Origin: Desulfobacteraceae bacterium
Lineage (GTDB): Bacteria > Desulfobacterota > Desulfobacteria > Desulfobacterales > BuS5
Assembly (NCBI GenBank): GCA_030642865.1
Contig: DAOWMW010000015.1
Location: forward strand, 1 to 11,630
DNA: 11,630 nucleotides
Reading direction: 5' to 3'
Shown: positions 1 through 11,630 of the stretch, one piece after another
How positions within the stretch are numbered: position 1 is the first letter of the stretch
Layout of the letters: every line of letters begins with the position of its first letter
Translations under genes and position numbers: made by a program
The notes under the pieces: generated by a model
The model's input: only the letters and a program-made list of their open reading frames with translations
Databases searched by the model: none
Told to the model about the DNA's origin: nothing

Positions 1-152
1 CCCCCTTGTTTAAAGAGGCAGACATGATAATCTGTGAAGGATACATCCATGGCCCCTGGAAAAAGCTTAAAGTCTGGCGAAAAAAGACTAATCCAGAACC
101 CGGATTTATACAAAAACGCGAATTGAAACTGTTATTACAGATAATCACATAA
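1..152 (+). CDS. 3' end of a MobB-like gene (partial, cut by window edge)
   Basis: An open frame enters from the left edge (codons in register from position 3) and stops at TAA 150-152, giving 49 C-terminal residues. It contains ADMIICEGYIHGPWKKLKVW. This matches the style of the MobB C-terminus, where an acidic-hydrophobic strand and 'EG(F/Y)' precede a K-(I/L)-x-V segment. MobB is the GTP-binding adapter of molybdopterin-guanine dinucleotide synthesis. The P-loop that would confirm it lies outside the window, so the name is a resemblance only. The gene ends 85 nt before the DUF3034 gene on the same strand. No clear terminator lies between them, so co-transcription is possible. Confidence 0.5.
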   Translation, partial: PLFKEADMIICEGYIHGPWKKLKVWRKKTNPEPGFIQKRELKLLLQIIT

Positions 153-237
153 AAACGAATCTACCTGTCTGGCCCCGTAAAAATATCCCGAAACTTGTGG
201 ACAACAGACTCTCTCTCACCGGAATGGGGAAATAATA

Positions 238-1179
238 ATGCTAAATTTTAATACACGGAGTTCAAATATACCTGTCATAGTAGTATTCACGTCCTTTTTG
301 TTTTTCATAGTAAGCCCTGGAGTATTTGCAGCAAACCCGGGGAGTCTTCCCCTTCCCATGCATGCAGCCGAAGGTGTTGGGGGATTATGGATTACCCATT
401 CAGCCTATTTTGCTAATCCTGCAACCGATGGAAAAATTATGGGAAAACCCGGCATAGGAGCAATGTATGTTAATCTGGGCCACGAAAAATATATTGACCT
501 TTTTTCCGCAACCCAAACCCTTGGAAATTGTGTTGAACTTGGATATTCCGCCATCCGTGCCCACTTTGGAGGTTTGCCCCAAAGAATAGAACAGGTTACA
601 GGAATTAAGATCAGGGATCACAATACGATTCTGCATAATTTTAATGGAAGACTCGCCCTCATTAAGGAGGGCGATTTTGATAAATCATGGATTCCCACGA
701 TGACCCTTGGTGTCCACTATAAATACAATTCAGAAATCAGTGATATAAATGATGACCTGGGTGGTACACTGGAATCGCTCCACCTAAAAGATAATGATGG
801 GTGGGATTTTACTGTTTATACATCAAAAACAATCACCTCCCTTCCCAAAATAGTTTTCATCACCCTTGGGGTTAGATCTACAAAGGGAGCACAACTTGGA
901 TTATTAGGCTTCACAGATAAAAGACGTATTGTCGTCGAAGGGAGCGTGGGTATCTTGTTAACAAAAAATTTTGTTGCAGGAGCTGAATATCGACAAAAAC
1001 CTGATCAGTTTGATGATGCGCCGGGGCTGTTTAAAGGAGAGGATGACTGGTGGGCTTTATCAATAGGTTATATAATCAATAACAAAATGACCATAGGTAG
1101 CGGGTATGGTCATTTCGGAGACGTTTTTGACCATAAAGCCAATTCTTCATGGGGTGTCGGGGTGAAGTGGGAATTTTAA
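238..1179 (+). CDS. DUF3034-family outer-membrane beta-barrel protein
   Basis: This is a 313-residue exported protein of unknown function. The N-terminus is a signal peptide: Asn/Arg-containing n-region, hydrophobic core VIVVFTSFLFFIVSP, and a likely cut after GVFA around residue 31. The mature part has alternating-hydrophobicity strands, many Gly and aromatic residues, and ends in WEF, the terminal aromatic typical of barrels assembled by the BAM complex. Segments AAEGVGGLWIT, LGLLGFTDKRR, AEYRQKPD, EDDWWALSIGY, GYGHFGDV and NSSWGV recall the DUF3034 family as I know it, and the length fits. The start is supported by GGGGA at 226-230, seven bases before ATG. A double hairpin with a T-run follows the stop. 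Location in the outer membrane is inferred and the substrate is unknown. Confidence 0.82.
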   Translation: MLNFNTRSSNIPVIVVFTSFLFFIVSPGVFAANPGSLPLPMHAAEGVGGLWITHSAYFANPATDGKIMGKPGIGAMYVNLGHEKYIDLFSATQTLGNCVELGYSAIRAHFGGLPQRIEQVTGIKIRDHNTILHNFNGRLALIKEGDFDKSWIPTMTLGVHYKYNSEISDINDDLGGTLESLHLKDNDGWDFTVYTSKTITSLPKIVFITLGVRSTKGAQLGLLGFTDKRRIVVEGSVGILLTKNFVAGAEYRQKPDQFDDAPGLFKGEDDWWALSIGYIINNKMTIGSGYGHFGDVFDHKANSSWGVGVKWEF

Positions 1180-1236
1180 GCATCCGTGGCTTACACTTTA
1201 CCTGTCTATTTTTTATAATTCAGGCGAATGCCGGGC

Positions 1237-1299
1237 TCCAGCCCTCCCTGTCAGTTACAGGGGGCTGGACTCCGCTTTTCACCGGAGTTACGATTTTTT
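1237..1299 (+). terminator. Double hairpin with T-run after the DUF3034 gene
   Basis: Stem A pairs TCCAGCCC (1237-1244) with GGGCTGGA (1262-1269) and CCTGT (1247-1251) with ACAGG (1257-1261), around a CAGTT loop, with a 2-nt bulge at 1245-1246. Stem B pairs ACTCCG (1269-1274) with CGGAGT (1283-1288). Five bases after stem B comes TTTTTT (1294-1299). The combination looks like a Rho-independent terminator for the upstream gene. The two stems share one base, so they can nearly coexist. The gap between stem B and the T-run is a little long, and termination is inferred. Confidence 0.6.
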
Positions 1300-1330
1300 A
1301 TAAACCCAGGCAGCATTAGAAAGTATAAAC

Positions 1331-1388
1331 GTAACTACTCAGCTACACTGATTCAGTGTATTGCAACAGATACTGGCTGAATAGTTAC
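1331..1388 (+). mobile_element. MITE copy 1 (58 bp, GTAA ends, 8-bp flanking repeats)
   Basis: The ends are GTAACTACTCAGC and GCTGAATAGTTAC, inverted repeats matching at 12 of 13 positions. Just inside the left end is the palindrome TACACTGATTCAGTGTA (1344-1360). The flanks are GTATAAAC (1323-1330) and GAATAAAC (1389-1396), an 8-bp direct repeat with one mismatch. It is 53/58 identical to the copy at 9105-9162. It is too short to encode a protein, so any movement needs a transposase supplied elsewhere. It lies between two convergent genes. Confidence 0.82.
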
Positions 1389-1429
1389 GAATAAACTAAA
1401 TTAAAAAAACACCACAATACCTTAAAACA

Positions 1430-1795
1430 CTAAAACGCCATCCCTTTTTCCACAAGTATTTTAACAGCACAATTTACCTTGCCCATTGCTTTATATTTTT
1501 CGGTAAACTTGTCAAAAACATCACCTGAGGTCATAAATTCAACTGCCTTGCCCCATACACGCCACCCTTTTCTGGTCTCGGGATTCAGTGCAATGATTGA
1601 TAAACTGGGATTTACCTTTAAATTATCAATGGTCTGGGGAGATTTGAGTTCTGCAAAAACCAGGTGATCATCATCCAAAACAGTAAGGGAACCTTTTATT
1701 GAGACATTCGGTTTTCCTTCCTGGTCAGCAGTTGCAACAAAAGATGGTTGAATTTCGGCTATAGCTTTTTTTAAATCATCATTGATCGCGCCCAT
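1430..1795 (-). CDS. Pyridoxamine 5'-phosphate oxidase-like FMN split-barrel protein
   Basis: A 121-residue cytosolic protein with the split-barrel flavin-binding fold pattern: SFVATADQEGKPNVS (strands 1-2), GSLTVLDDDHLVFAE, LKSPQTIDNLKVNPSLSII, then GWRVWGKAVE. This is the small single-domain type of the pyridoxamine 5'-phosphate oxidase superfamily. It is not a canonical PdxH, which is about twice as long. Members bind FMN, F420 or heme, and the actual reaction cannot be told from sequence. The start is well supported by AAAGGAGG upstream of ATG (complement of about 1803-1810). It is transcribed in the same direction as plsY, about 155 nt downstream of it, and convergent with the DUF3034 gene. 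There is no signal peptide. Confidence 0.8.
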   Translation of the reverse strand: MGAINDDLKKAIAEIQPSFVATADQEGKPNVSIKGSLTVLDDDHLVFAELKSPQTIDNLKVNPSLSIIALNPETRKGWRVWGKAVEFMTSGDVFDKFTEKYKAMGKVNCAVKILVEKGMAF

Positions 1796-1925
1796 TTTTT
1801 AAAGCCTCCTTTATTTTGAAAAATATCAGTAGTACCCGGCCAGAAGCTTGCGAGATGGAAGTTTATTTGTTTCTTGCAATTTCCTAACTGGACACTACTG
1901 GAAAAAAATACAAAAACAGATTCAT

Positions 1926-1942
1926 ATAGACCTAAGGTCTAT
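1926..1942 (-). terminator. Palindrome after plsY, possible weak terminator
   Basis: ATAGACC (1926-1932) and GGTCTAT (1936-1942) are perfect inverted arms around TAA. The palindrome begins 8 nt past the plsY stop. Reading leftward it is followed within about 20 nt by two T-rich runs. The T-runs are not adjacent to the stem, so it could equally be an operator or a simple processing hairpin upstream of the PNPOx-like gene. Confidence 0.35.
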
Positions 1943-1950
1943 TCAGCGAT

Positions 1951-2574
1951 TTATTTTTTCTTCCATATCACAGGTTCCCGATTCGACAAAAGACGTTTAA
2001 GATTATCTTTATGGCGTATGACAATAAATACAGACATCACCAGGGCACAGATCGAGACAACTGTCTCCCCGGATTTTATCCAAACAAAGAAAGGGAGTAT
2101 TACAGCCCCTCCCATGGAAGCCACAGAAACACGTTTACATATAAAGAGAAGAATGACAAAAATTAAAAACGAAGCGCCACAGGCAGCAGGGGCAAGTATG
2201 AAAAAACATCCAGCCGTGGTCGCGACACCTTTTCCACCCCCTTTAAAGCCTGTAAAAACAGGATAAAGATGCCCCATAAAAGAAGAAAAAGCTACCAGGG
2301 AAACGAAAATTCCAGTCCGCGCAGGAGACGGGTGTTCCATTAAAAGAGCCAGATATACAGGAAACGCTCCTTTAAAAAAATCACATCCAAGGGTCAGTAA
2401 ACCCAGCCCAGGTCCTGCAACCCGCGTAACATTGGTGGCACCTATGTTTTTACTCCCCTTTTCTCTCACGTCAAAGCTGGCGAATATCCTCACTAAAACA
2501 TAACCGGATGGGATAGATCCCAGAAGATAAGCCATGGGAATCAGCAAAAGCAGCTTGATTAATATTGGTTCCAT
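1951..2574 (-). CDS. plsY: Glycerol-3-phosphate acyltransferase PlsY
   Basis: PlsY is an inner-membrane enzyme that moves an acyl group from acyl-phosphate to the sn-1 position of glycerol-3-phosphate, making lysophosphatidate for phospholipid synthesis. All three conserved cytoplasmic motifs are present: YLLGSIPSGYV near the N-terminus, EKGSKNIGATNVTRVAG, and GHLYPVFTGFKGGGKGVAT. Between them are hydrophobic membrane segments such as LIKLLLLIPMAYL, ACGASFLIFVILLFI and VVSICALVMSVFIVI. I chose ATG at 2574 (207 aa, MEPILIK...). The frame can be extended five codons to a TTG at 2589, but neither start has a convincing ribosome-binding site. The C-terminus is basic (WKKK). It is divergent from smr-panC across an AT-rich promoter region. 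Confidence 0.95.
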   Translation of the reverse strand: MEPILIKLLLLIPMAYLLGSIPSGYVLVRIFASFDVREKGSKNIGATNVTRVAGPGLGLLTLGCDFFKGAFPVYLALLMEHPSPARTGIFVSLVAFSSFMGHLYPVFTGFKGGGKGVATTAGCFFILAPAACGASFLIFVILLFICKRVSVASMGGAVILPFFVWIKSGETVVSICALVMSVFIVIRHKDNLKRLLSNREPVIWKKK

Positions 2575-2612
2575 GCTTATTTTTATCAAAATGATTAAAT
2601 AAAAAAAATAAC

Positions 2613-2641
2613 TTGAATCTTTTTATTTATATTTTTATACA
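2613..2641 (+). promoter_or_regulatory. Predicted promoter for smr-panC
   Basis: TTGAAT (2613-2618) and TATACA (2636-2641) are separated by exactly 17 nt and resemble sigma-70 -35 and -10 hexamers. Transcription would begin near 2648, leaving about 105 nt of leader before the smr start. The surroundings are extremely AT-rich, so chance matches are a real possibility. Confidence 0.42.
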
Positions 2642-2652
2642 AAACATATCAA
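2624..2652 (-). promoter_or_regulatory. Predicted promoter for plsY, overlapping the smr promoter
   Basis: Reading leftward, TTGATA (complement of 2647-2652) is followed after 17 nt by TAAATA (complement of 2624-2629), or after 15 nt by TATAAA (complement of 2626-2631). This would start transcription about 40 nt before the plsY ATG. It overlaps the predicted rightward promoter almost completely. Confidence 0.33.
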
Positions 2653-2753
2653 GGGAAAATAAATAAAAATCGTAAATAGTACATTTAGCTCAAAAACAGG
2701 GAGAAAAAGGGATTATCTCTTCTCAACTTTATAAAGAAACCGAAAGTATTACG

Positions 2754-3053
2754 GTGAAACTTCCCATCACAGATGTTCTGGATCTGCATACTTTCAACCC
2801 AAAAGAAGTGCCTGAGCTGCTCTCCGACTATTTCAGAGCTTGTCTTGATGTCGGTATATTTTCCATAAAAATCATCCATGGGAAAGGTCGCGGAATTTTA
2901 AAAAACCGTGTACTTTCCCTTTTAAAGCTAAATCCCATGGTAAAATCATTCCAGGGAGCTCCCCCTGGATCTGGCGGCTGGGGCGCAACACTTGTGGAAC
3001 TGAATTCTCATACTAAAATGGAACAAGAACCATGCAACCTGTTAAAATTATAA
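2754..3053 (+). CDS. Stand-alone Smr-domain protein
   Basis: A 99-residue small protein that is essentially one Smr domain, the nucleic-acid-nicking domain found at the C-terminus of MutS2 and as single-domain proteins. Visible motifs are LDLHTF (the DLH motif, residues 9-14), IIHGKGRGIL (the HGxG loop) and GGWGATLVEL near the C-terminus. The start is GTG at 2754. It lacks a good ribosome-binding site, and the frame is open back to a stop at 2673-2675 with no other ATG, GTG or TTG. A purine-rich AGGGAGAAAAAGGG lies just before an in-frame ATT at 2712, so a rarer start giving 14 more residues is conceivable. The last 22 nt overlap panC in another frame, which implies coupled translation. The biological role of single-domain Smr proteins is not settled. 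Confidence 0.85.
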   Translation: MKLPITDVLDLHTFNPKEVPELLSDYFRACLDVGIFSIKIIHGKGRGILKNRVLSLLKLNPMVKSFQGAPPGSGGWGATLVELNSHTKMEQEPCNLLKL

Positions 3054-3886
3054 CTACCGTAAAAAAGATGCAAGAACACTCCGACCTTATGATTCATCAG
3101 GGTAAATCAATTGCACTTATTCCAACCATGGGCTTCCTCCACGAGGGTCACCTCTCTTTAATGCAAGAGGGCTCCAGACATGCAGATCACCTTGTGGTAA
3201 GTATTTTTGTAAACCCCACTCAATTTGGCCAGGGAGAAGACCTGGAAGCGTATCCAAAAGATTTCAACAGGGATATGGACCTTTGCAAAAAAAAGGGGGT
3301 AGATGTTATATTCAAACCGGATGCTCCGGAATTATACCCTGAAAATTTTCAAACTTATATAGCCCTGGAAAAACTGCCCAACCACCTATGCGGACTATCC
3401 AGGCCGGTTCATTTTAAAGGTGTGGCCACCATTGTCACAAAACTTTTTAATATTGTAAAACCTGACATTGCTATATTCGGCCAAAAAGATTTTCAACAAT
3501 TAGCTGTTATCAAGCAGATGGTTTCCGATCTTCATATGACTGTAAAGGTAATAGGAGCGCCAATCATCAGGGAAGCAGACGGCCTTGCCATGAGTTCAAG
3601 AAATACCTGTCTCTCCCCCGAAAAACGGCCGGCGGCTCTCTCTCTTTTTGAATCGTTAAATAATGCAAAACAGCTTATAAAAAACGGTGTTACAGACTCA
3701 AATATAATCACCAAAAAGGCCAGGGATATTGTAAAATTTCATGGGGATACAGAGATAGATTACATATCAATATGCGACCCGGAAACCCTTGAGGATGTCC
3801 AGAATATAAAAAAGCCTGTTTTAATGGCAATGGCTGTTAAAGTCGGCAAAACACGCCTTATAGACAATATGCTTCTATCTCCATAA
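3032..3886 (+). CDS. panC: Pantothenate synthetase PanC
   Basis: PanC joins pantoate and beta-alanine using ATP, through a pantoyl-adenylate intermediate, in the last step of pantothenate (vitamin B5, coenzyme A precursor) synthesis in the cytosol. The 284 residues match the family length. Signatures in order: PTMGFLHEGHLSL with the HxGH nucleotide-binding motif at residues 37-40, FVNPTQF at 59-65, LCGLSRPVHFKGV, FGQKDFQQ, IREADGLAMSSRN with the KMSKS-like MSSRN at 187-191, and LIDN near the end. ATG at 3032 lies inside the end of smr (22-nt overlap). GGAAC upstream is only a modest ribosome-binding site, so reinitiation from smr is likely. panB and panD are not in the window. Confidence 0.97.
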   Translation: MQPVKIITTVKKMQEHSDLMIHQGKSIALIPTMGFLHEGHLSLMQEGSRHADHLVVSIFVNPTQFGQGEDLEAYPKDFNRDMDLCKKKGVDVIFKPDAPELYPENFQTYIALEKLPNHLCGLSRPVHFKGVATIVTKLFNIVKPDIAIFGQKDFQQLAVIKQMVSDLHMTVKVIGAPIIREADGLAMSSRNTCLSPEKRPAALSLFESLNNAKQLIKNGVTDSNIITKKARDIVKFHGDTEIDYISICDPETLEDVQNIKKPVLMAMAVKVGKTRLIDNMLLSP

Positions 3887-3903
3887 GGATTGTGAATTTT
3901 ATT

Positions 3904-4028
3904 AATTACCCAGAATTACTTGTTCTTGTGCCCGTCTTCCGTGTTGCATCAATGGCCACAGACTCCGAGTATGCAACCATTGATGCGCCTTGAAGACGAC
4001 CACAAGTCCGGCGCAATTATGGGTAATT
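3904..4028. repeat. 125-nt long imperfect palindrome upstream of metK
   Basis: Two arms of about 52 nt face each other around a 21-nt loop (3956-3976). Perfectly paired blocks are AATTACCCA (3904-3912) with TGGGTAATT (4020-4028), AATT (3914-3917 with 4015-4018), CTTGTG (3925-3930) with CACAAG (4001-4006), CGTCTTC (3933-3939) with GAAGACG (3992-3998), and GCATCAATGG (3946-3955) with CCATTGATGC (3977-3986). TATT occurs directly outside both ends (3900-3903 and 4029-4032), which could be a 4-bp target duplication. TTGCAT (3945-3950) could instead pair with ATGCAA (3971-3976), giving a competing inner fold. It may be a miniature inverted-repeat element, a regulatory leader, or both. Confidence 0.75.
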
Positions 4029-4046
4029 TATTTCATCCCCAATCCT
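4025..4046 (+). repeat. 22-nt repeat, left arm (upstream of metK)
   Basis: This 22-mer (beginning AATTTATTTC, ending CCAATCCT) is the exact reverse complement of 5315-5336 on the far side of metK. It overlaps the last four bases of the long palindrome and lies 73 nt before the metK start. Confidence 0.9.
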
Positions 4047-4118
4047 GACTTTAACTCCAATTCACTTAAATCTTCGAGACAACAGATATAAACATATAAA
4101 CCATGCAGGAGAAAACCG

Positions 4119-5288
4119 ATGAGCCGACAAAATTTCCTTTTCACATCTGAATCAGTTACCGAAGGGCACCCTGACAAAGTAGCAGATGCCATCTCAGATT
4201 CCATATTAGACGCAATTATCGTACAGGATAAAGCTTGCCGGGTTGCCTGCGAGACCCTTGTGACCACGGGGATAGCATTTATTGCAGGTGAGATAACCAC
4301 CAACTGCTATGTTGACATGCCTCAGATCGTAAGAGACACAATAAAAGATATCGGCTATAATTCTTCTGACATGGGTTTTGACTGGCAAACATGCTCTGTA
4401 ATCACCAGCATCGACCATCAGTCCCCCGACATTGCCCAGGGTGTAAATGCAGGAGAAGGGCTCTATAAAGAACAAGGTGCCGGAGATCAGGGGATTATGT
4501 TTGGGTATGCTTCAGACGAAACCCCTGAATTAATGCCCATGCCCATATTATTAGCCCACAGACTGACAAAAAGGCTCGCAAAAGCAAGAAAAGATAATAT
4601 CATTGATTTTTTAAGACCCGATGGAAAATCCCAGGTAACCATAAAATATGAAGAGAGTGTTCCAAAATATATCGACACCGTTGTAATATCGACCCAGCAT
4701 ACCCCTGATATTTCCTACAATCAGATAAAAGAGGCTGTAATTGAAGAAGTTATAAAAAAAGTACTCCCCATTGATATGGTGACCCCTGATACACGTTTTC
4801 TTATCAACCCCACTGGCAAGTTTGTAATCGGAGGGCCCATGGGCGATTGCGGCCTGACCGGGCGTAAGATTATTGTAGATACCTACGGAGGCCAGGGAAG
4901 TCACGGTGGGGGATGTTTCTCAGGGAAAGATCCTTCCAAAGTAGACAGAAGCGCATCCTACATGGGAAGGTATATTGCAAAAAATATTGTTGCAGCCGGC
5001 CTTGCAAAAAAATGTGAGGTTCAGATCGCTTACGCCATAGGAGTTGCAGAACCTGTCTCCATAATGGTAGATTTAATGAATACAGGCGTTATTTCCAAAA
5101 ATCAGGTTAAAAAAATAATTACCCAGGTTTTTGACCTGAGACCCACAGCAATAATAGAAAACCTGGATCTTTTGCGGCCAATATATAAAAAGACCTCAGC
5201 TTATGGACATTTTGGCCGAAACGACCCTGACTTTACATGGGAAAAAACCGATAAAGCAGAACTGATCAGGGAAAAAGCGGGATTGTAA
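4119..5288 (+). CDS. metK: S-adenosylmethionine synthetase MetK
   Basis: MetK makes S-adenosylmethionine from methionine and ATP in the cytosol, releasing phosphate and diphosphate. The 389-residue length is typical. Visible signatures are GHPDK at residues 16-20 (His17 acts on the ATP triphosphate), [12 protein letters not shown] at 120-131, [20 protein letters not shown], and the glycine-rich phosphate loop [10 protein letters not shown] at 263-272, where Cys266 replaces the usual Ala. The start is set by AGGAG at 4107-4111, seven bases before ATG. The 232-nt gap after panC contains a large palindrome, so metK may have its own promoter or leader control. ahcY follows 94 nt downstream, pairing SAM synthesis with SAH removal. 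No known SAM riboswitch core was recognised in the leader. Confidence 0.97.
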
Positions 5289-5314
5289 TTTTTTTTAAAA
5301 AAAGTAAACTGGTA

Positions 5315-5336
5315 AGGATTGGGGATGAAATAAATT
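5315..5336 (-). repeat. 22-nt repeat, right arm (upstream of ahcY)
   Basis: Exact reverse complement of 4025-4046, located in the metK-ahcY gap 46 nt before the ahcY start. In a joint metK-ahcY transcript the two arms could form a 22-bp duplex enclosing the metK cistron. As DNA they could instead be two operator copies, one ahead of each SAM-cycle gene. Confidence 0.9.
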
Positions 5337-5382
5337 CACGAGCCTAAGATACCAAAAGCTGCGTAAAAAGGAGAAATCAACA

Positions 5383-6807
5383 ATGTCCTTCTTAAAACTG
5401 GATTCATCATTACCATATAAAATCGCCGATATTTCACTTGCAGATCTCGGAGAAAAAGAGATGCGCCTGTCGGAAAACGAGATGCCGGGCCTCATGGCTG
5501 TCCGAACGAAATACGGCCAAAAAAAACCTTTAAAAGGTATGAAAATCATGGGAAGTCTCCACATGACCATTCAGACCGCCATGCTCATCGAAACCCTCAA
5601 GGAACTCGGCGCAGATCTGAGGTGGGCTTCATGTAATATTTTTTCAACCCAGGATCATGCTGCCGCCGCAATTGCAAAAAGAGGATCTTCTGCTGTTTTT
5701 GCATGGAAAGGTGAAACTCTGGAAGAATTCTGGTGGTGCACAGAACAGGCACTTATCTGGCCTGACGGGTCAGGCCCTGACCTTATTGTGGATGACGGAG
5801 GAGACGCAACCCTGTATGTACATCAGGGCGCACTTGTTGAAAAAGATCCCTCCCTTCTCGACAAAGAATATGCCTCCCTTGACATGAAATGCCTGATGGA
5901 TCGTCTTAAAGTCAGTCATAACACAGAGCCCCAACGCTGGACTCAAATTGCATCAAAAATACTGGGCGTTTCTGAAGAGACAACCACAGGTGTTCACAGA
6001 CTTTATCACCTGGCCAAAAATAATGAACTTCTTTTCCCTGCTTTTAATGTTAATGATTCAGTCACAAAATCAAAATTCGACAACCTTTACGGATGCAGAG
6101 AATCCCTTGCTGACGGAATAAAACGGGCCACAGATATTATGATCGCAGGAAAAACAGCTGTGGTCTGCGGCTATGGTGATGTGGGAAAAGGATGTGCCCA
6201 GTCTTTAAAAGGATTTGGTGCCCGTGTACTCATTACAGAAATCGATCCAATATGCGCACTTCAGGCCTCCCTGGAAGGGTTTCAAGTAGTTTTAATGGAG
6301 GATGCAGCTTCCATGGGAGATATTTTTGTCACAGCCACCGGATGCTACCATGTAATCACCGGCAAACATATGCAAAACATGAAAAATGAAGCTATAATAT
6401 GCAACATTGGCCATTTTGATAATGAAATCGAGATGAGTTATCTTACTGACAATCCTGATTTTGAAAAGGAATCTATTAAGCCTCAGGTGGATAAATGGAC
6501 AGGCAAATCAGGAAAATCCCTGATCATCCTTGCCGAAGGAAGGCTGGTCAACCTAGGCTGTGCAACCGGGCACCCAAGTTTTGTAATGAGCAGCAGCTTC
6601 ACAAACCAGACCCTTGCCCAAATAGAACTTGCAACAAAAAAACATGAAAATAAAGTTTACACACTTCCCAAAGCCATTGATGAAGAGGTGGCAAGGCTGC
6701 ATCTTGACAGACTCGGTGTGAAACTCTCGAAACTCACACAAGAACAGGCTGATTATCTGGGAGTATCGGCGGAAGGCCCATATAAACCCAAACAGTACAG
6801 ATATTAA
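5383..6807 (+). CDS. ahcY: S-adenosylhomocysteine hydrolase (adenosylhomocysteinase)
   Basis: AhcY reversibly splits S-adenosylhomocysteine, the inhibitory product of SAM-dependent methyl transfer, into homocysteine and adenosine using tightly bound NAD+. The 474 residues fit the long bacterial form, which carries an extra segment before the NAD domain (here around [16 protein letters not shown]). Visible features: [14 protein letters not shown] and [15 protein letters not shown] in the substrate domain, [23 protein letters not shown], the Rossmann motif CGYGDVGKG with GxGxxG at residues 263-268, [21 protein letters not shown], and C-terminal KPKQYRY, whose Lys and Tyr reach into the neighbouring subunit in this family. 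AAGGAG at 5368-5373 sets the start. It follows metK in the same direction, probably co-transcribed. Confidence 0.97.
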
Positions 6808-6814
6808 AAGAACT

Positions 6815-6890
6815 GTAATTATTCAGCCAATATCTACAATAACAGGTATAATCTGATTAAAACATTGAATCAGTGTAGCTGAATAGTTAC
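6815..6890 (-). mobile_element. MITE copy 2 (76 bp, inverted, enlarged spacer)
   Basis: The ends are GTAATTATTCAGC and GCTGAATAGTTAC (12/13 inverted match), and the order of internal blocks is reversed relative to copies 1 and 3. After the shared block CCAATATCTACAA there is a 22-nt spacer (6840-6861) where copy 3 has 4 nt. The palindrome follows, with one arm slightly altered (ACATTGAATCAGTGTA). The flanks are AAAGAACT (6807-6814) and AAAGAATT (6891-6898), an 8-bp direct repeat with one mismatch. It starts 8 nt after the ahcY stop, whose last base lies in the left flank. Confidence 0.8.
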
Positions 6891-6906
6891 AAAGAATTTT
6901 ACAGAT

Positions 6907-6951
6907 CGCAGATTGGAACAGATTTTTTAATATCCCTGCAATCTGCGTTTT
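6907..6951 (+). terminator. Hairpin plus short T-run downstream of ahcY
   Basis: CGCAGATT (6907-6914) pairs perfectly with AATCTGCG (6940-6947), followed at once by TTTT (6948-6951). The 25-nt loop is long and the T-run short, so this is a weak Rho-independent terminator candidate for the metK-ahcY transcript. The AATCTGCG word could equally belong to a dispersed intergenic repeat. Confidence 0.35.
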
Positions 6952-6960
6952 GATTTCGAC

Positions 6961-7040
6961 TGGGGCAGGTGCAGAATCCCTTTCTGTCATTGCAGGGGCA
7001 GAATCTATTTCTGCCCTGCGGATATGGAATCCGCCCCTGC
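6961..7040. repeat. GC-rich hairpin cluster with a duplicated 16-nt unit
   Basis: GCAGAATCCCTTTCTG (6971-6986) is repeated with two changes as GCAGAATCTATTTCTG (6998-7013), a spacing of 27 nt. The second unit lies inside a larger fold: GCAGGGGC (6992-6999) can pair with GCCCCTGC (7033-7040), and GCGGAT (7018-7023) with ATCCGC (7029-7034). GGCAG (6997-7001) with CTGCC (7011-7015) is a competing stem. The cluster stands out from the AT-rich surroundings and contains no coding frame I can support. Confidence 0.55.
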
Positions 7041-7307
7041 TTGTTTCTTCACCTTTTCAATTACGTTTTGACAATTACTTTCGATAAATTCTTCCCCTGC
7101 AACGTATGCAAGTGATGCTGTGCACAGATCCGTTCCTTTACATGTGAAAATAGATCAAAATCAAAAGACATCTGTGCTTTTATCTGGCAGAGACAGTTCA
7201 ACAACTCTTGTGGATAATTTGAGCTTTTAGATAATAGCTTCTAATTTGAAGATAATAGTGTTCTTGGAAGTTAAAAGAAATTTACCGTGGTTTTGGGCAT
7301 ATAATGC
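7041..7307. other. Gene-free stretch before deaD
   Basis: No coding frame, RNA gene or strong terminator was recognised here. The only structure seen is an 8-bp inverted repeat, GCACAGAT (7122-7129) with ATCTGTGC (7170-7177), spaced 40 nt and followed by TTTT. A stray TATAAT at 7300-7305 has no matching -35 box at normal spacing. Confidence 0.5.
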
Positions 7308-7336
7308 TTGCCTTACCGTTTAATTCATGTTATATT
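7308..7336 (+). promoter_or_regulatory. Predicted promoter for deaD (extended -10)
   Basis: TTGCCT (7308-7313) and TATATT (7331-7336) are spaced by 17 nt, and TG at 7328-7329 gives the extended -10 form TGnTATATT. Predicted transcription starts near 7343, leaving a roughly 70-nt A-rich leader before the helicase gene. Long leaders are common in cold-shock helicase mRNAs, but nothing here shows cold control directly. Confidence 0.48.
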
Positions 7337-7413
7337 CGTCTGTTTTATATAGCCAAAAGTTGAAATTATTAAAAAGATTTAAAAAAAAATAAAAATAAGA
7401 GATTAAGAAAAAA

Positions 7414-9093
7414 ATGAGTTTTGAAAATTTTGATTTAATAGACGAGTTATTGAAGGCGGTTACTGACCTCGGGTTTGTAGAACCAACACCGATCCAGACA
7501 GATGCAATTCCGGAAATTATTGGTGGAGGGAGGGACCTTGTGGGGCTTGCCCAAACAGGAACAGGGAAAACAGCAGCTTTTGCTTTACCCATGATCCAGT
7601 TAATTGACTTTGACCTTACATATCCCCAGGGAATGGTGATTTGCCCCACCAGGGAGCTCTGTTTGCAGATTTCCGAGGATATTAAAAAATTATGTAAATA
7701 TGTAAAAGGCGCAAGGGTTGCTGCTGTTTATGGGGGCGCCAGTATTGAAAATCAGAGAAATCAGCTCAAAAAAGGGGCTCAGATTATTGTGGCAACACCA
7801 GGGAGATTGCTTGATCTTATTAATAGAAAAATAGCAAAACTTTCCAGGGTAGCATATCTGGTTCTTGATGAAGCGGATGAAATGCTTAATATGGGGTTTC
7901 AGGAAGATATAGATGCCATTCTTGAAAACACACCATCTCAAAAAAGAACCTGGCTCTTTTCTGCAACAATGCCCCGTGAAGTTGCTAAAATTGCAAAAAA
8001 ATATATGAAAAATCCGGTTGAGATAACTGTGAGGAAAAAAAACAGCGGTGCTGACAAGATTTTGCATATGAATTATATTGTTAAAGAACAAGACAGGTAT
8101 CAGGCATTAAAACGGATTATTGATTATTACCCGGATATTTATGGCCTTGTCTTTTGCCGCACACGAAAAGAGACACAGGAGATAGCCGAAAAATTGATCA
8201 AAGACAGCTATAATGCTGAAGCCCTCCATGGTGACCTTTCCCAGGCAATACGGGATAAAGTGATGAGTAGATTTAAAGCAAAATCTATTCAGATTCTTAT
8301 TGCAACAGATGTTGCTGCCCGCGGGATAGATATTCAGGATATAACCCATGTAATTAATTACAAACTTCCGGATGAGGCGGAAAACTATACTCACAGGAGC
8401 GGCAGAACCGCAAGAGCTGGTAAATCAGGGACATCCATAGTTATAATCAATTCCCGGGAAAAAAGGAAACTTCAGTTTGTGGAAAAAAAAGCCGGGGTTA
8501 AATTTAATTATACAAAAGTTCCAGAAGGGTGTGTAATTTGTGAAAAACAACTCTATTCCATGATCAGTCAAATAGTAAAAGCCAAAGTTGATCAAAAAGA
8601 AATCGGGCGTTTCCTGTTACCGGCCTACAATGCATTAAGCGATCTTACAAAAGAGGAGCTCATTCAAAAATTTGTTTCAATTGAATTTAATCGCTTCCTT
8701 GATTATTATAAAGATTCCAAAGATATAAATGTATCCTTTAGTAAAAAGGAAGGGTCTAACCTCCCTGCAAAAAAAAATCGACAACAAAAAAATTTAGCCC
8801 ATGGAAAAGCGAAACGTTTTTTTTTAAATGCAGGTTCCATGGACAATTTAAAAAAAGGGACTGTAATAAGAACTTTATGCAGCAGATCTGGAATTAGTGC
8901 TGAAAAGATCGGCCCAATAGAAATCATGCGGGAATTTTCTTTTTTTGAAGTTGAAACAAGTGTTGCAGCTAAAGTGTTAAAAGCGATGAAAGGTGCAAAA
9001 ATTGATGGCCGGGATATTCGGGTTCAATATGCCGAAAATAAAAAAACGGAAACCGGTCGATTTAAAAAAAGTAAAAAGAAAAAAAAGAATTAA
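7414..9093 (+). CDS. deaD: DEAD-box ATP-dependent RNA helicase, DeaD/CsdA type
   Basis: This is a cytosolic ATP-dependent RNA helicase of 559 residues. DeaD/CsdA proteins unwind structured RNA in ribosome assembly and mRNA turnover, often at low temperature. Motifs in order: Q motif around PTPIQ with Gln28, motif I AQTGTGKT (46-53), PTREL (78-82), TPGRLLD (128-134), DEAD (152-155), SAT (183-185), then LVFCRTRKE, ATDVAARGIDI and HRSGRTARAG in the second RecA domain. From about residue 468 to 541 is a DbpA-type RNA-binding domain (FFLNAGSMDNLKKGTVIRTL through GRDIRVQYAE), which separates it from the shorter RhlE proteins. The protein ends in a Lys-rich tail. The ribosome-binding site is weak (AAGAGA-like, A-rich leader). 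It is convergent with the HAD gene, with MITE copy 3 between them. Confidence 0.93.
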   Translation: MSFENFDLIDELLKAVTDLGFVEPTPIQTDAIPEIIGGGRDLVGLAQTGTGKTAAFALPMIQLIDFDLTYPQGMVICPTRELCLQISEDIKKLCKYVKGARVAAVYGGASIENQRNQLKKGAQIIVATPGRLLDLINRKIAKLSRVAYLVLDEADEMLNMGFQEDIDAILENTPSQKRTWLFSATMPREVAKIAKKYMKNPVEITVRKKNSGADKILHMNYIVKEQDRYQALKRIIDYYPDIYGLVFCRTRKETQEIAEKLIKDSYNAEALHGDLSQAIRDKVMSRFKAKSIQILIATDVAARGIDIQDITHVINYKLPDEAENYTHRSGRTARAGKSGTSIVIINSREKRKLQFVEKKAGVKFNYTKVPEGCVICEKQLYSMISQIVKAKVDQKEIGRFLLPAYNALSDLTKEELIQKFVSIEFNRFLDYYKDSKDINVSFSKKEGSNLPAKKNRQQKNLAHGKAKRFFLNAGSMDNLKKGTVIRTLCSRSGISAEKIGPIEIMREFSFFEVETSVAAKVLKAMKGAKIDGRDIRVQYAENKKTETGRFKKSKKKKKN

Positions 9094-9104
9094 AATACAA
9101 GCAT

Positions 9105-9162
9105 GTAACTACTCAGCTACACTGATTCAGTGTATTGTTGTAGATATTGGCTGAATAGTTAC
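9105..9162 (+). mobile_element. MITE copy 3 (58 bp, same orientation as copy 1)
   Basis: Same length and ends as copy 1 (GTAACTACTCAGC ... GCTGAATAGTTAC), with 53 of 58 positions identical. The five differences fall between the palindrome and the right end. TACACTGATTCAGTGTA is intact. The flanks are ACAAGCAT (9097-9104) and ACAATCAT (9163-9170), an 8-bp direct repeat with one mismatch. It fills the short convergent gap between deaD and the HAD gene, where its hairpins could also affect transcript ends. Confidence 0.83.
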
Positions 9163-9171
9163 ACAATCATT

Positions 9172-10014
9172 TCATATAAAATCTTTAAGCTGAGCCAGAT
9201 CCGTAATAATCATATCAGGGGTAATGTTCCGGCACTCCTGATTCTCTTCCCTTAATCGTAAAGATCTTTTATCCCCCGCAAAAAGAGCTGTTTGAAACCC
9301 TGCTTTTTTTGCAGGGAAAATATCTTTTAACATATCATTTCCAAGATAGAGCACAGATCCCGGTAAAATTTTCATTTCCCCAAGTTTTTCAACAGCCCTG
9401 TTAAACATAAACATTGACGGCTTTCCATATCCGTATATGTATGAATAAAAGATCAGCTCAGGGGAAAACCCCATCTCTTCAGGGTCTGAATTAAAAAACC
9501 AGTTAAAAAGCCAGGGAGTATAAAACTGGGCATTCGAGATTATTCCGGTTGATATGCCTGAGCCTTTGCATGCTAAAAGAAGTTCTTCAGCACGGGGCAT
9601 GGGATATACCTGATTTACAATAAGTTCATAACAGGCGGCAAATTTTCTTGCTGTTTTTAAGTCGCGGATATTTAAAACATCCATCCAGAGCAAATCTATC
9701 TTCACCTCAGGAAAATCAACACCTTTTTTTTTAAATTGAGCGTGGGTGGTGTGAATTTTTTCAGACAGATGCTGCAAAATTTTTTCAGGGCTTTTTTTTA
9801 TCCCTAATTCCTCCAGCAGCTCCGCCACCTTTAATAATTTTTGCGATTTATCCCCGGCAAATCCAATATCCCCTGCTTCACTGATAAAAAGCGTGCCGTA
9901 AAGGTCAAAGAGAATGGCTCTAATCTTTTTGCAGGGTTCACCCCGCCTCCCAAGGGATGTGGGAATCGGAGAAAAAGGAATTATATATTTAAATATCTCC
10001 ATTTTATTCAACAT
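9172..10014 (-). CDS. HAD-superfamily hydrolase (DxY-type motif I)
   Basis: A cytosolic HAD-fold hydrolase of 280 residues. Motif I is ILFDLYGTLF with nucleophile Asp37. Tyr39 stands where phosphatases usually have the second Asp, as in the DxYGT form known from haloacid dehalogenases. Motif II is Ser160 in GIISNAQ, motif III Lys198 in GKPS, and motif IV GNDMLKD (Asp227, Asp231). A helical cap lies between motifs I and II, so the catalytic set looks intact. I chose ATG at 10014, 5 nt after GGGG. Alternatives are GTG at 10020 and ATG at 10002. The gene overlaps the glycosyltransferase by 11 nt, indicating one operon. The pairing suggests a phosphatase or dehalogenase step on the same sugar compound, but the substrate is unknown. 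Confidence 0.85.
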   Translation of the reverse strand: MLNKMEIFKYIIPFSPIPTSLGRRGEPCKKIRAILFDLYGTLFISEAGDIGFAGDKSQKLLKVAELLEELGIKKSPEKILQHLSEKIHTTHAQFKKKGVDFPEVKIDLLWMDVLNIRDLKTARKFAACYELIVNQVYPMPRAEELLLACKGSGISTGIISNAQFYTPWLFNWFFNSDPEEMGFSPELIFYSYIYGYGKPSMFMFNRAVEKLGEMKILPGSVLYLGNDMLKDIFPAKKAGFQTALFAGDKRSLRLREENQECRNITPDMIITDLAQLKDFI

Positions 10015-11416
10015 AACCACCCCATTTGAGAAGACTGAACTGCTTTGGATTTAAAAAATTTGAAGCTAAAATTTTCTTATCAATAGTTTGGATGACAGGA
10101 TTCTCAATAATTTTCAAATAAGTTTTAAGGAGTCTTTTTTTATAGATTGTCTGATTATATTTTTTCTCCACAGCCGCCATATTTTTTTTTATCAAATTTT
10201 TTTTATCGGATAATTCGGCCGGAGGAAGAATATGAGGATTTTTTGCAATGAGCTCATCTGCACTTTTTCGCTCAGACATTACTTTTAAAATAACTTTTTT
10301 CTGAAACTGCTCGTCAAGAATCCCAAAATCAATATGGTCATCAATTATTATTTCATTAAAAAACTGTTCAGTATTTTTTCGACCCTCATCAAATCCAAAT
10401 ATTGTACAATTTTTCATCCAGCATGCTTTCCATCTCTTATAAAAAGCATCCCTCCCTATCCATTTAAAAGGGAGAAGTATATTAGAATAAAGGTGGTCCA
10501 GGCTCACCCCATTTTTTTCAAAACCATCACATATTTCATCAAGTCTTCTTCCCCACAAAAATTTATTTGCGGTCCATGGCTCCAAAAAGGTAAAGCCAAA
10601 CCCTTCTGTTATACTCGTGGTGATAAGAGATTTTGAGTTACTGACAAGTTCATTAAAATCATTTTTAAGACCTGCATCAAAATTGACTTTCAGCCTGTTT
10701 GAAGATATAAATTTTTTCCACCCCATGAAACTGTCAATATCAGGTTGACTGTTGGGAGGAAGAGTAATAGACAAAGTCTCATTATTTTTAAAAAAAAGAG
10801 ATAAAAGAATTGCTTCCCCTATATTTTTCCTCCGTATCCCCCTGACCGGATAGAGAATATTATTCCCGGAATCCTTACCATTGCAATTAAGCGGAACAAC
10901 AGCATTTGGAAGATAATGAAGTCCTTTTTCAGTCAGTCCCGACCTTAAGAGAATTTCATAATCCCTGGAATTAATAACACCGTAATGGGAATCATGGGGA
11001 TACTCGCTCCCTGCGAAAAAAGATAATGGCCGCCCATCCTCTGCAAAATCATGAATCTGCAAAAAAAGTCTCATCCCGCTTTTTTGAAGAAAATATAAAA
11101 TTTTTAAAAAATTTCTATTTTTAGCCAAAACAGGATTGTGCACATGGAGTATATCGCACTCCCCTTTAAATTTTTCCAGAATAGCTTTTTGTACGGCATC
11201 AGCTACTTTTTCAGGATCATATATATCTCTGGAACCGGTCCCGTTATAATAGCCAAGCCCCGGAACATGTACTGTATCAGCAGAAAAAGAAGCAAGTGGT
11301 GGTTCCCCTGTTAAAAGAAGAATCTCACAATTATCTTTTAAAGCCTCTATCTGATGTTTTAAAACAGAGGTAACCCCTCCCTGCTTTAGATGATAGTGAA
11401 TAAAGGCAATTTTCAT
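10004..11416 (-). CDS. GT4-like glycosyltransferase (GT-B fold)
   Basis: A 470-residue cytosolic or membrane-associated sugar transferase. The N-terminal domain opens with MKIAFIHYHL and the acceptor-side glycine loop QGGVTSVLKH (12-21). DILHVHNP (88-95) and LFLQIHDF are the expected Rossmann strands. Ser/Asn-rich NSKSLITTSITEGFGFTFLEPW carries the retaining-enzyme EX7E motif at Glu271 and Glu279, which binds the nucleotide-sugar donor. After that comes an unusually long tail of about 190 residues that is Lys-rich and helical (EKKYNQTIYKKRLLKTYLK), beyond the normal core. Donor and acceptor are unknown. ATG at 11416 has no visible ribosome-binding site and is preceded by TATTATATTATAAAAT. The 3' end overlaps the HAD gene, so the two are probably translated together. 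Confidence 0.83.
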   Translation of the reverse strand: MKIAFIHYHLKQGGVTSVLKHQIEALKDNCEILLLTGEPPLASFSADTVHVPGLGYYNGTGSRDIYDPEKVADAVQKAILEKFKGECDILHVHNPVLAKNRNFLKILYFLQKSGMRLFLQIHDFAEDGRPLSFFAGSEYPHDSHYGVINSRDYEILLRSGLTEKGLHYLPNAVVPLNCNGKDSGNNILYPVRGIRRKNIGEAILLSLFFKNNETLSITLPPNSQPDIDSFMGWKKFISSNRLKVNFDAGLKNDFNELVSNSKSLITTSITEGFGFTFLEPWTANKFLWGRRLDEICDGFEKNGVSLDHLYSNILLPFKWIGRDAFYKRWKACWMKNCTIFGFDEGRKNTEQFFNEIIIDDHIDFGILDEQFQKKVILKVMSERKSADELIAKNPHILPPAELSDKKNLIKKNMAAVEKKYNQTIYKKRLLKTYLKIIENPVIQTIDKKILASNFLNPKQFSLLKWGGYVE

Positions 11417-11501
11417 TATTTTATAATATAATAGTTACGAAAAATATTGATTTTAAATAACAACGGCGGCAATGAAGTAGAAGGCATACCTTGTTGTCTC
11501 T

Positions 11502-11630
11502 ACTCCTTATTTTCAAGGGAGTCATAAGGGTTCGCTCAAAAATAAATTGGCAATTTTAAGTGTTGAGGCGCCTGCCTGACAAGGCGCGAAAGCGTAGGAA
11601 TATCAAGATATTTATACGTTTTCGTAACGC
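11502..11630. repeat. Palindrome-dense intergenic tail at the right edge
   Basis: Several hairpins occur in succession. ACTCCTT (11502-11508) pairs with AAGGGAGT (11515-11522) with one bulged G. GCGCCT (11568-11573) pairs with AGGCGC (11582-11587). A long stem pairs 11586-11603 with 11608-11625 around the loop CAAG (11604-11607), with one G/A mismatch and three G-T wobbles in 18 positions. The second and third share two bases (11586-11587), so their outermost pairs compete. The window ends here, so the element may be incomplete. No coding frame is supported between 11417 and 11630. Confidence 0.55.

Follow-up and report, generated by a model that had tools for sequence, protein, structure and literature searches.

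The DNA considered here, called the window throughout, is a stretch of 11,630 nucleotides from a Desulfobacteraceae bacterium (GenBank assembly GCA_030642865.1, contig DAOWMW010000015.1, positions 1 to 11,630 of the forward strand). It carries three short elements with inverted ends that encode no genes and are recognized here as miniature inverted-repeat transposable elements (MITEs), with ends of the kind found on insertion sequences of the IS66 family. All three lie near the 3′ ends of genes, and the neighboring genes, as judged by Pfam, encode a DUF3034 protein, a PNPOx-like protein, S-adenosylmethionine synthetase, the ahcY product, a DEAD-box helicase with a DbpA domain, and a HAD hydrolase.

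The Three Elements of the Window

Element 1 is a 58-bp IS66-type MITE on the plus strand (1331-1388), with 13-bp ends at 1331-1343 and 1376-1388 and an inner palindrome at 1344-1360, flanked by the 8-bp repeats GTATAAAC (1323-1330) and GAATAAAC (1389-1396). Element 2, of 76 bp, is on the minus strand (6815-6890), with ends at 6815-6827 and 6878-6890, and lies between AAAGAACT (6807-6814) and AAAGAATT (6891-6898); the ahcY stop codon occupies 6805-6807, and its last base is the first base of the left flanking repeat. Element 3, again of 58 bp and on the plus strand (9105-9162), has ends at 9105-9117 and 9150-9162, an inner palindrome at 9118-9134, and flanking repeats ACAAGCAT (9097-9104) and ACAATCAT (9163-9170). 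Elements 1 and 3 are thus oriented alike, with element 2 inverted relative to both. Five of the six ends are exactly GTAACTAYTCAGC, and the left end of element 2, GTAATTATTCAGC, departs from it by one mismatch. Elements 1 and 3 carry a perfect copy of the internal palindrome, TACACTGATTCAGTGTA, and element 2 an imperfect one, and within each pair of flanking repeats 7 of 8 positions are identical. Direct reading therefore agrees with a preliminary description of this DNA, which had reported the three elements, their inverted 13-bp ends, the internal palindrome, and the flanking repeats.

A Large Family With a Fixed Target Duplication

The preliminary description spoke of a three-copy family; three is the correct number for the window, but the host genome holds many more. 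That genome (G000) is a metagenome-assembled genome (MAG) of 1.62 Mb in 285 contigs and is 67% complete. A 74-mer spanning element 1 matches it in 48 rows, some of them opposite-strand or partial hits on one element, and the 13-mer, allowed at most one mismatch, occurs at 115 sites (100 of which were listed with their places) versus one site for a reversed-pattern control. Following retrieval of 60 further stretches, ends were paired by a fixed rule into 64 elements, 63 of which have both flanks; some of these are accidental pairings of unrelated ends, chiefly at lengths above 90 bp. The two flanks agree at all eight bases in 15 elements, at seven in 12, at six in four, at five in five, and at fewer in the remaining 27. 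Agreement at seven or eight bases is accordingly seen in 27 of 63 elements, versus 0.8% when flanks are given shuffled partners, and in 25 of the 48 pairs no longer than 90 bp. Length 8 alone stands out, with 15 exact flanking repeats compared with no more than two at any other length between 3 and 13. A chance origin of the repeats, which the preliminary description had already thought very unlikely from three cases, is rejected on the excess of end sites over the control and of flank matches over the shuffles, and the window elements are members of a large family of short elements whose target duplication is fixed at 8 bp.

The earlier claim that these are transposed units is strengthened by the genome-wide duplications and by two further observations. 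In one stretch of the host genome (L024), a copy flanked on both sides by GTCAGATC sits inside sequence that begins like another copy. At ahcY, a conserved position in distant relatives, which the preliminary description had named as a mark of a vertically inherited regulatory structure, is not seen: when 400 bp downstream of the gene were scanned on both strands at 23 loci, the host's own included, sequence resembling the end at 11 or more of 13 positions was present in the host alone and at none of the 22 loci of relatives, two of which offered just 167 and 287 bp to scan. The 74-mer likewise found no match at E 0.001 in 39 other genomes taken as relatives, a set that contains no genome of the same genus.

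The duplications are richer in AT (83%) than the outer flanks (70%), and when placed against simple frame calls, 49 of 50 copies fall outside reading frames (10 of them at the edge of a stretch), at median distances of 45.5 bp from 3′ ends and 93.5 bp from 5′ ends. Neighboring genes are in tandem around 28 copies, divergent around six, and convergent around five, close to a local background of 42, 9, and 10. A preference for gene 3′ ends, suggested by the window, is not claimed here.

Palindromic Long Form and Folding

Two long forms occur in the same genome, a 253-bp copy (L017, 1290-1542) flanked on each side by TTTGGTGC and another of 242 bp (L259, 659-900) whose flanks match at 7 of 8 bases. 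Folding of the former runs over nearly its full length (z -11.4), and a search of the genome with its interior returns 61 match rows, most of them partial. Palindromes are prone to internal deletion. Because the 58- and 76-bp copies of the window, along with a 43-bp class, retain both ends and parts of the 253- and 242-bp arms, the parent of the family in this genome was probably a near-perfect palindrome of about 250 bp, of which the 43-87-bp forms, window copies included, would be internally deleted descendants with both ends kept.

All six strands of the window elements fold better than the mean of their shuffles (z -2.8 to -5.8), as inherited hairpins between genes might, but such folding is expected of any inverted-repeat element. 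In 14 aligned copies none of 19 pairs shows changes on both sides, so that nothing points to selection for an RNA structure, and Rfam at its gathering threshold has no match in the window. An inherited RNA structure is rejected on this lack of covariation and on the comparison at ahcY.

IS66 Elements With the Same Ends

Gene-bearing elements that could serve as partners were delimited by their ends and duplications among retrieved loci matching PF03050. Ends of exactly GTAACTAYTCAGC and duplications identical at 8 of 8 bases are found in L227 (1758 bp, duplication AAACAAGT), in two copies in L232 (1724 bp each, TATTGAAA and ATAAAAAC), in L240 (1757 bp, AAAACGCC), and in L309 from a Pseudomonadales MAG (1706 bp, TTGCGATA), while L235 and L243 (1588 bp) end in GTAACTACTCAGG. 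Six of these seven short elements were read, and each has a single long frame of 438-554 codons; NCBIfam assigns the transposases of the short single-gene elements to IS66, as does Pfam for those scanned, and in L232 and L240 the transposase match is free of stops. In a 58-row tree, the transposases of every delimited GTAACTAYTCAG-ended element included fall in one clade of nine rows (support 100/99). Of these nine, L236 and L242 have no ends delimited by the rule, although end-like 13-mers are present with flanks that match poorly in L236 and partly in L242. Long branches were flagged in the tree, and the deeper placement of the clade is therefore unsure.

The earlier reading of GTAA ends with 8-bp duplications as a sign of IS66 is borne out by these elements and can be narrowed to one part of the family, the single-gene ISBst12 group. 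The name of the group is taken, by comparison of ends and repeat, from ISDge4 of Deinococcus geothermalis, an element seen to transpose that its authors assign to the ISBst12 group. ISDge4 is bounded by GTGACTACTCAGCA and GTAACTGCTCAGCA, with a repeat of 8 bp (PMC12898284), and these ends are nearly the same as those of the window family. Members of the group differ from the window elements in encoding a transposase within 1.6-1.8 kb, the window elements being 58-76 bp long and without a gene. Classical IS66 elements of about 2.4 kb, the size of the three-gene type (L205, L210, L213, and others), share the GTAA start and the 8-bp duplication but begin GTAAGCG or GTAAGTG and have transposases in another part of the tree, and classical IS66 was rejected as the matching partner on account of these ends. 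Two elements of 2.7 kb start GTAAATATTCGG. Another single-gene type (L165 and L170, 1578 bp) has ends GTAAGCGTTCACG, so possession of one gene does not by itself fix the ends.

Elements With These Ends in Other Lineages

Further searches used a full pattern consisting of the end pair around an interior of 18-48 bp, a pattern that dictates similar ends but not the duplications. The pattern is present in four of 389 genomes of the order (control, none) and in at least 112 stretches of a species collection, and it had no matches in a collection of viral contigs. Among the matches listed, the lineages represented include Desulfo- and Deltaproteobacteria, Gammaproteobacteria, Chloroflexi, Prevotella, Saprospiraceae, Lachnospiraceae, Bacillus, Spirochaetes, Aminicenantes, and two archaeal MAGs. 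Contamination is possible, most source genomes being MAGs, and flanks of the two archaeal elements (L050 and L150) match at just 4 of 8 bases. For the 112 distinct elements listed outside the order (120 with loci of the order), flanks match at 8 of 8 bases in 44 and at 7 of 8 in 20, together 64 of 112, versus 0.3% of shuffles, and 8 is again the only duplication length that stands out. Judged by shared 9-mers, the interiors of these elements form about 57 groups, 29 of which include at least one case with 7 or 8 matching flank bases; the largest has 22 members, all but one from a single MAG. At the variable position of the end, 108 of the 112 carry the same letter at both ends, unlike most window copies. 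Elements with an 8/8 duplication go down to 45 bp (L141), and single 13-mers reach 137 sites in one whole genome (G389; control, 1) and 194 in another (G394; control, 0).

In Desulfoluna limicola (L151, L153, L059, and other loci), a species of the same order as the host, hairpins of GCCTCCGGCGG are found within GTAACTAYTCAGC-ended elements as well as on their own. Over 66.9 kb of this species, 24 of 66 GCCTCCGGCGG sites have no end (at up to two mismatches) within 250 bp, whereas all 38, 32, and 14 core sites of the host genome of the window have one; the stretches compared were all chosen for their ends. A comparison of six Desulfoluna genomes matched the flanks of one G168 element to separate places in G147 and G184, and so gave no clean empty site.

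One tentative extension of these data, which we regard as possible but doubtful, is that GTAACTAYTCAGC is a shared transposition code by which a roaming ISBst12-group transposase moves any DNA lying between such ends, in bacteria and possibly archaea. Tiny elements with unrelated and often hairpin-forming interiors would then have separate origins in dozens of lineages, in some cases perhaps through capture of hairpin repeats that the host already had.

Proposed Mobilization and Rival Explanations

The ends, the duplications, the copy number, and the palindromic long form are direct observations, as are the matching ends and duplications of IS66 elements in other genomes. With these in hand, we consider it highly likely that the window elements are non-autonomous MITEs of the single-gene ISBst12 group of IS66, moved in trans by TnpC and descended from the palindromic parent. 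A TnpC transposase supplied in trans would recognize the 13-bp GTAACTAYTCAGC ends and move the unit, its staggered insertion would be repaired into the 8-bp duplication, mostly in AT-rich intergenic spacers, and internal deletion of the parent would yield the shorter forms with their ends intact. The transposase gene itself may have been lost from this lineage or left unassembled.

Several observations weigh against this account. Neither PF03050 nor the L240 protein finds an IS66 transposase in the 67% complete host genome or in G394 and G395, whose end sites number 194 and 105, respectively. Two partner elements may themselves be damaged: L227 and L309 are possibly broken near the N-terminus, because the protein match in L227 runs across two TGA codons and part of the L309 N-terminus is matched by a separate piece in a different stretch. 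G396 speaks for the account in that MITEs there share a genome with an IS66 element whose GTAACTAYTCAGC ends they also have. By eye, the interiors of these MITEs have just the first 13-15 bp in common with the IS66 ends, and the MITEs are therefore probably not plain deletion derivatives of that element. Three genomes of the order sample that hold partner elements (G013, G063, and G127) have no short element by the exact pattern.

PF03050 matches are present in 157 of the 389 genomes of the order, and some PF03050 gene, often of another type, occurs in 5 of 8 and 14 of 26 genomes examined. The L240 protein finds matches in 19 of 40 genomes, including three source genomes of partner elements; in G391, G414, G415, and G420 it finds broken or short pieces that are 38-68% identical, and G398 has neither a PF03050 gene nor a match to it. 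From these co-occurrence data, the partner is often absent or broken where MITEs are frequent, and the incompleteness of MAGs may explain part of this. A search for autonomous elements in the MITE-rich genomes found no end pair 800-3500 bp apart whose flanks match at more than 4 of 8 bases. Eleven frames between such neighboring ends were rejected as transposases, each resembling a host gene by eye, as with one sigma factor and one phosphoglycerate mutase. PF03050 has weak matches to a frame of 564 amino acids in a Thiomargarita MAG (L316; E 9.6e-6) and to one of 556 amino acids in a Thermoflexales MAG (L317; E 1.1e-4); both source genomes carry MITEs with GTAACTAYTCAGC-type ends, and L317 forms a very long branch in the tree.

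The same gaps lend something to a rival explanation, that the elements are the same MITEs but are moved by another transposase family, or by a different IS66 branch, whose ends are almost the same and whose stagger is likewise 8 bp. A transposase of the matching clade is missing from G000, G394, G395, and G398, and other IS66 branches also give 8-bp duplications, as in a 2818-bp element starting GTAACCGTTCACG (L387, duplication 8/8) in G001, a genome of the same family as G000; in G002, also of that family, an IS66-like frame of 471 amino acids lies between end-like sites GTTACTACTCAG (L385). We nevertheless hold this explanation to be unlikely, since exact GTAACTAYTCAGC ends sit on delimited IS66 elements of one clade and none of the 11 frames read between such ends looks by eye like another transposase, although other transposase families were not systematically searched. 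That the elements are instead inherited, immobile regulatory or terminator hairpins, flanked by repeats through chance, would suit their folding, their placement outside called frames, and the position of all three window copies near gene 3′ ends, but is highly improbable against duplications far above chance, loci of relatives with nothing end-like after ahcY, the absence of paired changes and of an Rfam match, and a neighbor orientation close to background.

Other Repeats and Genes in the Window

The window contains two further repeats. One (3886-4046 and 5312-5336) has inverted arms AGGATTG...AATTTATTTCATCCCCAATCCT on either side of the S-adenosylmethionine synthetase gene, and its end sequence recurs in two other stretches of the host genome (L263 and L264). 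The other (TTAAGTGTTGAGGCGCCTG...) occupies about 11500-11630 and appears elsewhere in the host genome as well (L263 and L282). A 470-codon frame on the minus strand (10004-11416) has no Pfam match at E 0.001 and is glycosyltransferase-like by eye only.

Significance

Bacterial MITEs such as MITEPsy1/2 and MITEAba12 resemble the window elements in being short, gene-free, and present in many copies with inverted ends, and differ in having other ends and, where one is named, another presumed partner family (IS5, with a query mark, for MITEPsy1). Within the library of papers searched, GTAACTATTCAGC gave no match, while its reverse complement, GCTGAGTAGTTAC, and GTAACTACTCAGC led only to silkworm and fish-or-animal speciation work, and a search for IS66 MITEs across titles and the openings of abstracts found no report of the family of this genome. 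In itself, the window family is a tidy, ordinary MITE family. The more interesting part of the finding is that one 13-bp end pair surrounds many unrelated interiors with 8-bp duplications. The transposition mechanisms of IS66 are called insufficiently characterized in the ISDge4 article (PMC12898284). Spacer repeats of this lineage gain an origin and a testable transposase group, and elements of this kind, down to 45 bp in length, offer natural minimal substrates for working out how IS66 transposases recognize their ends.

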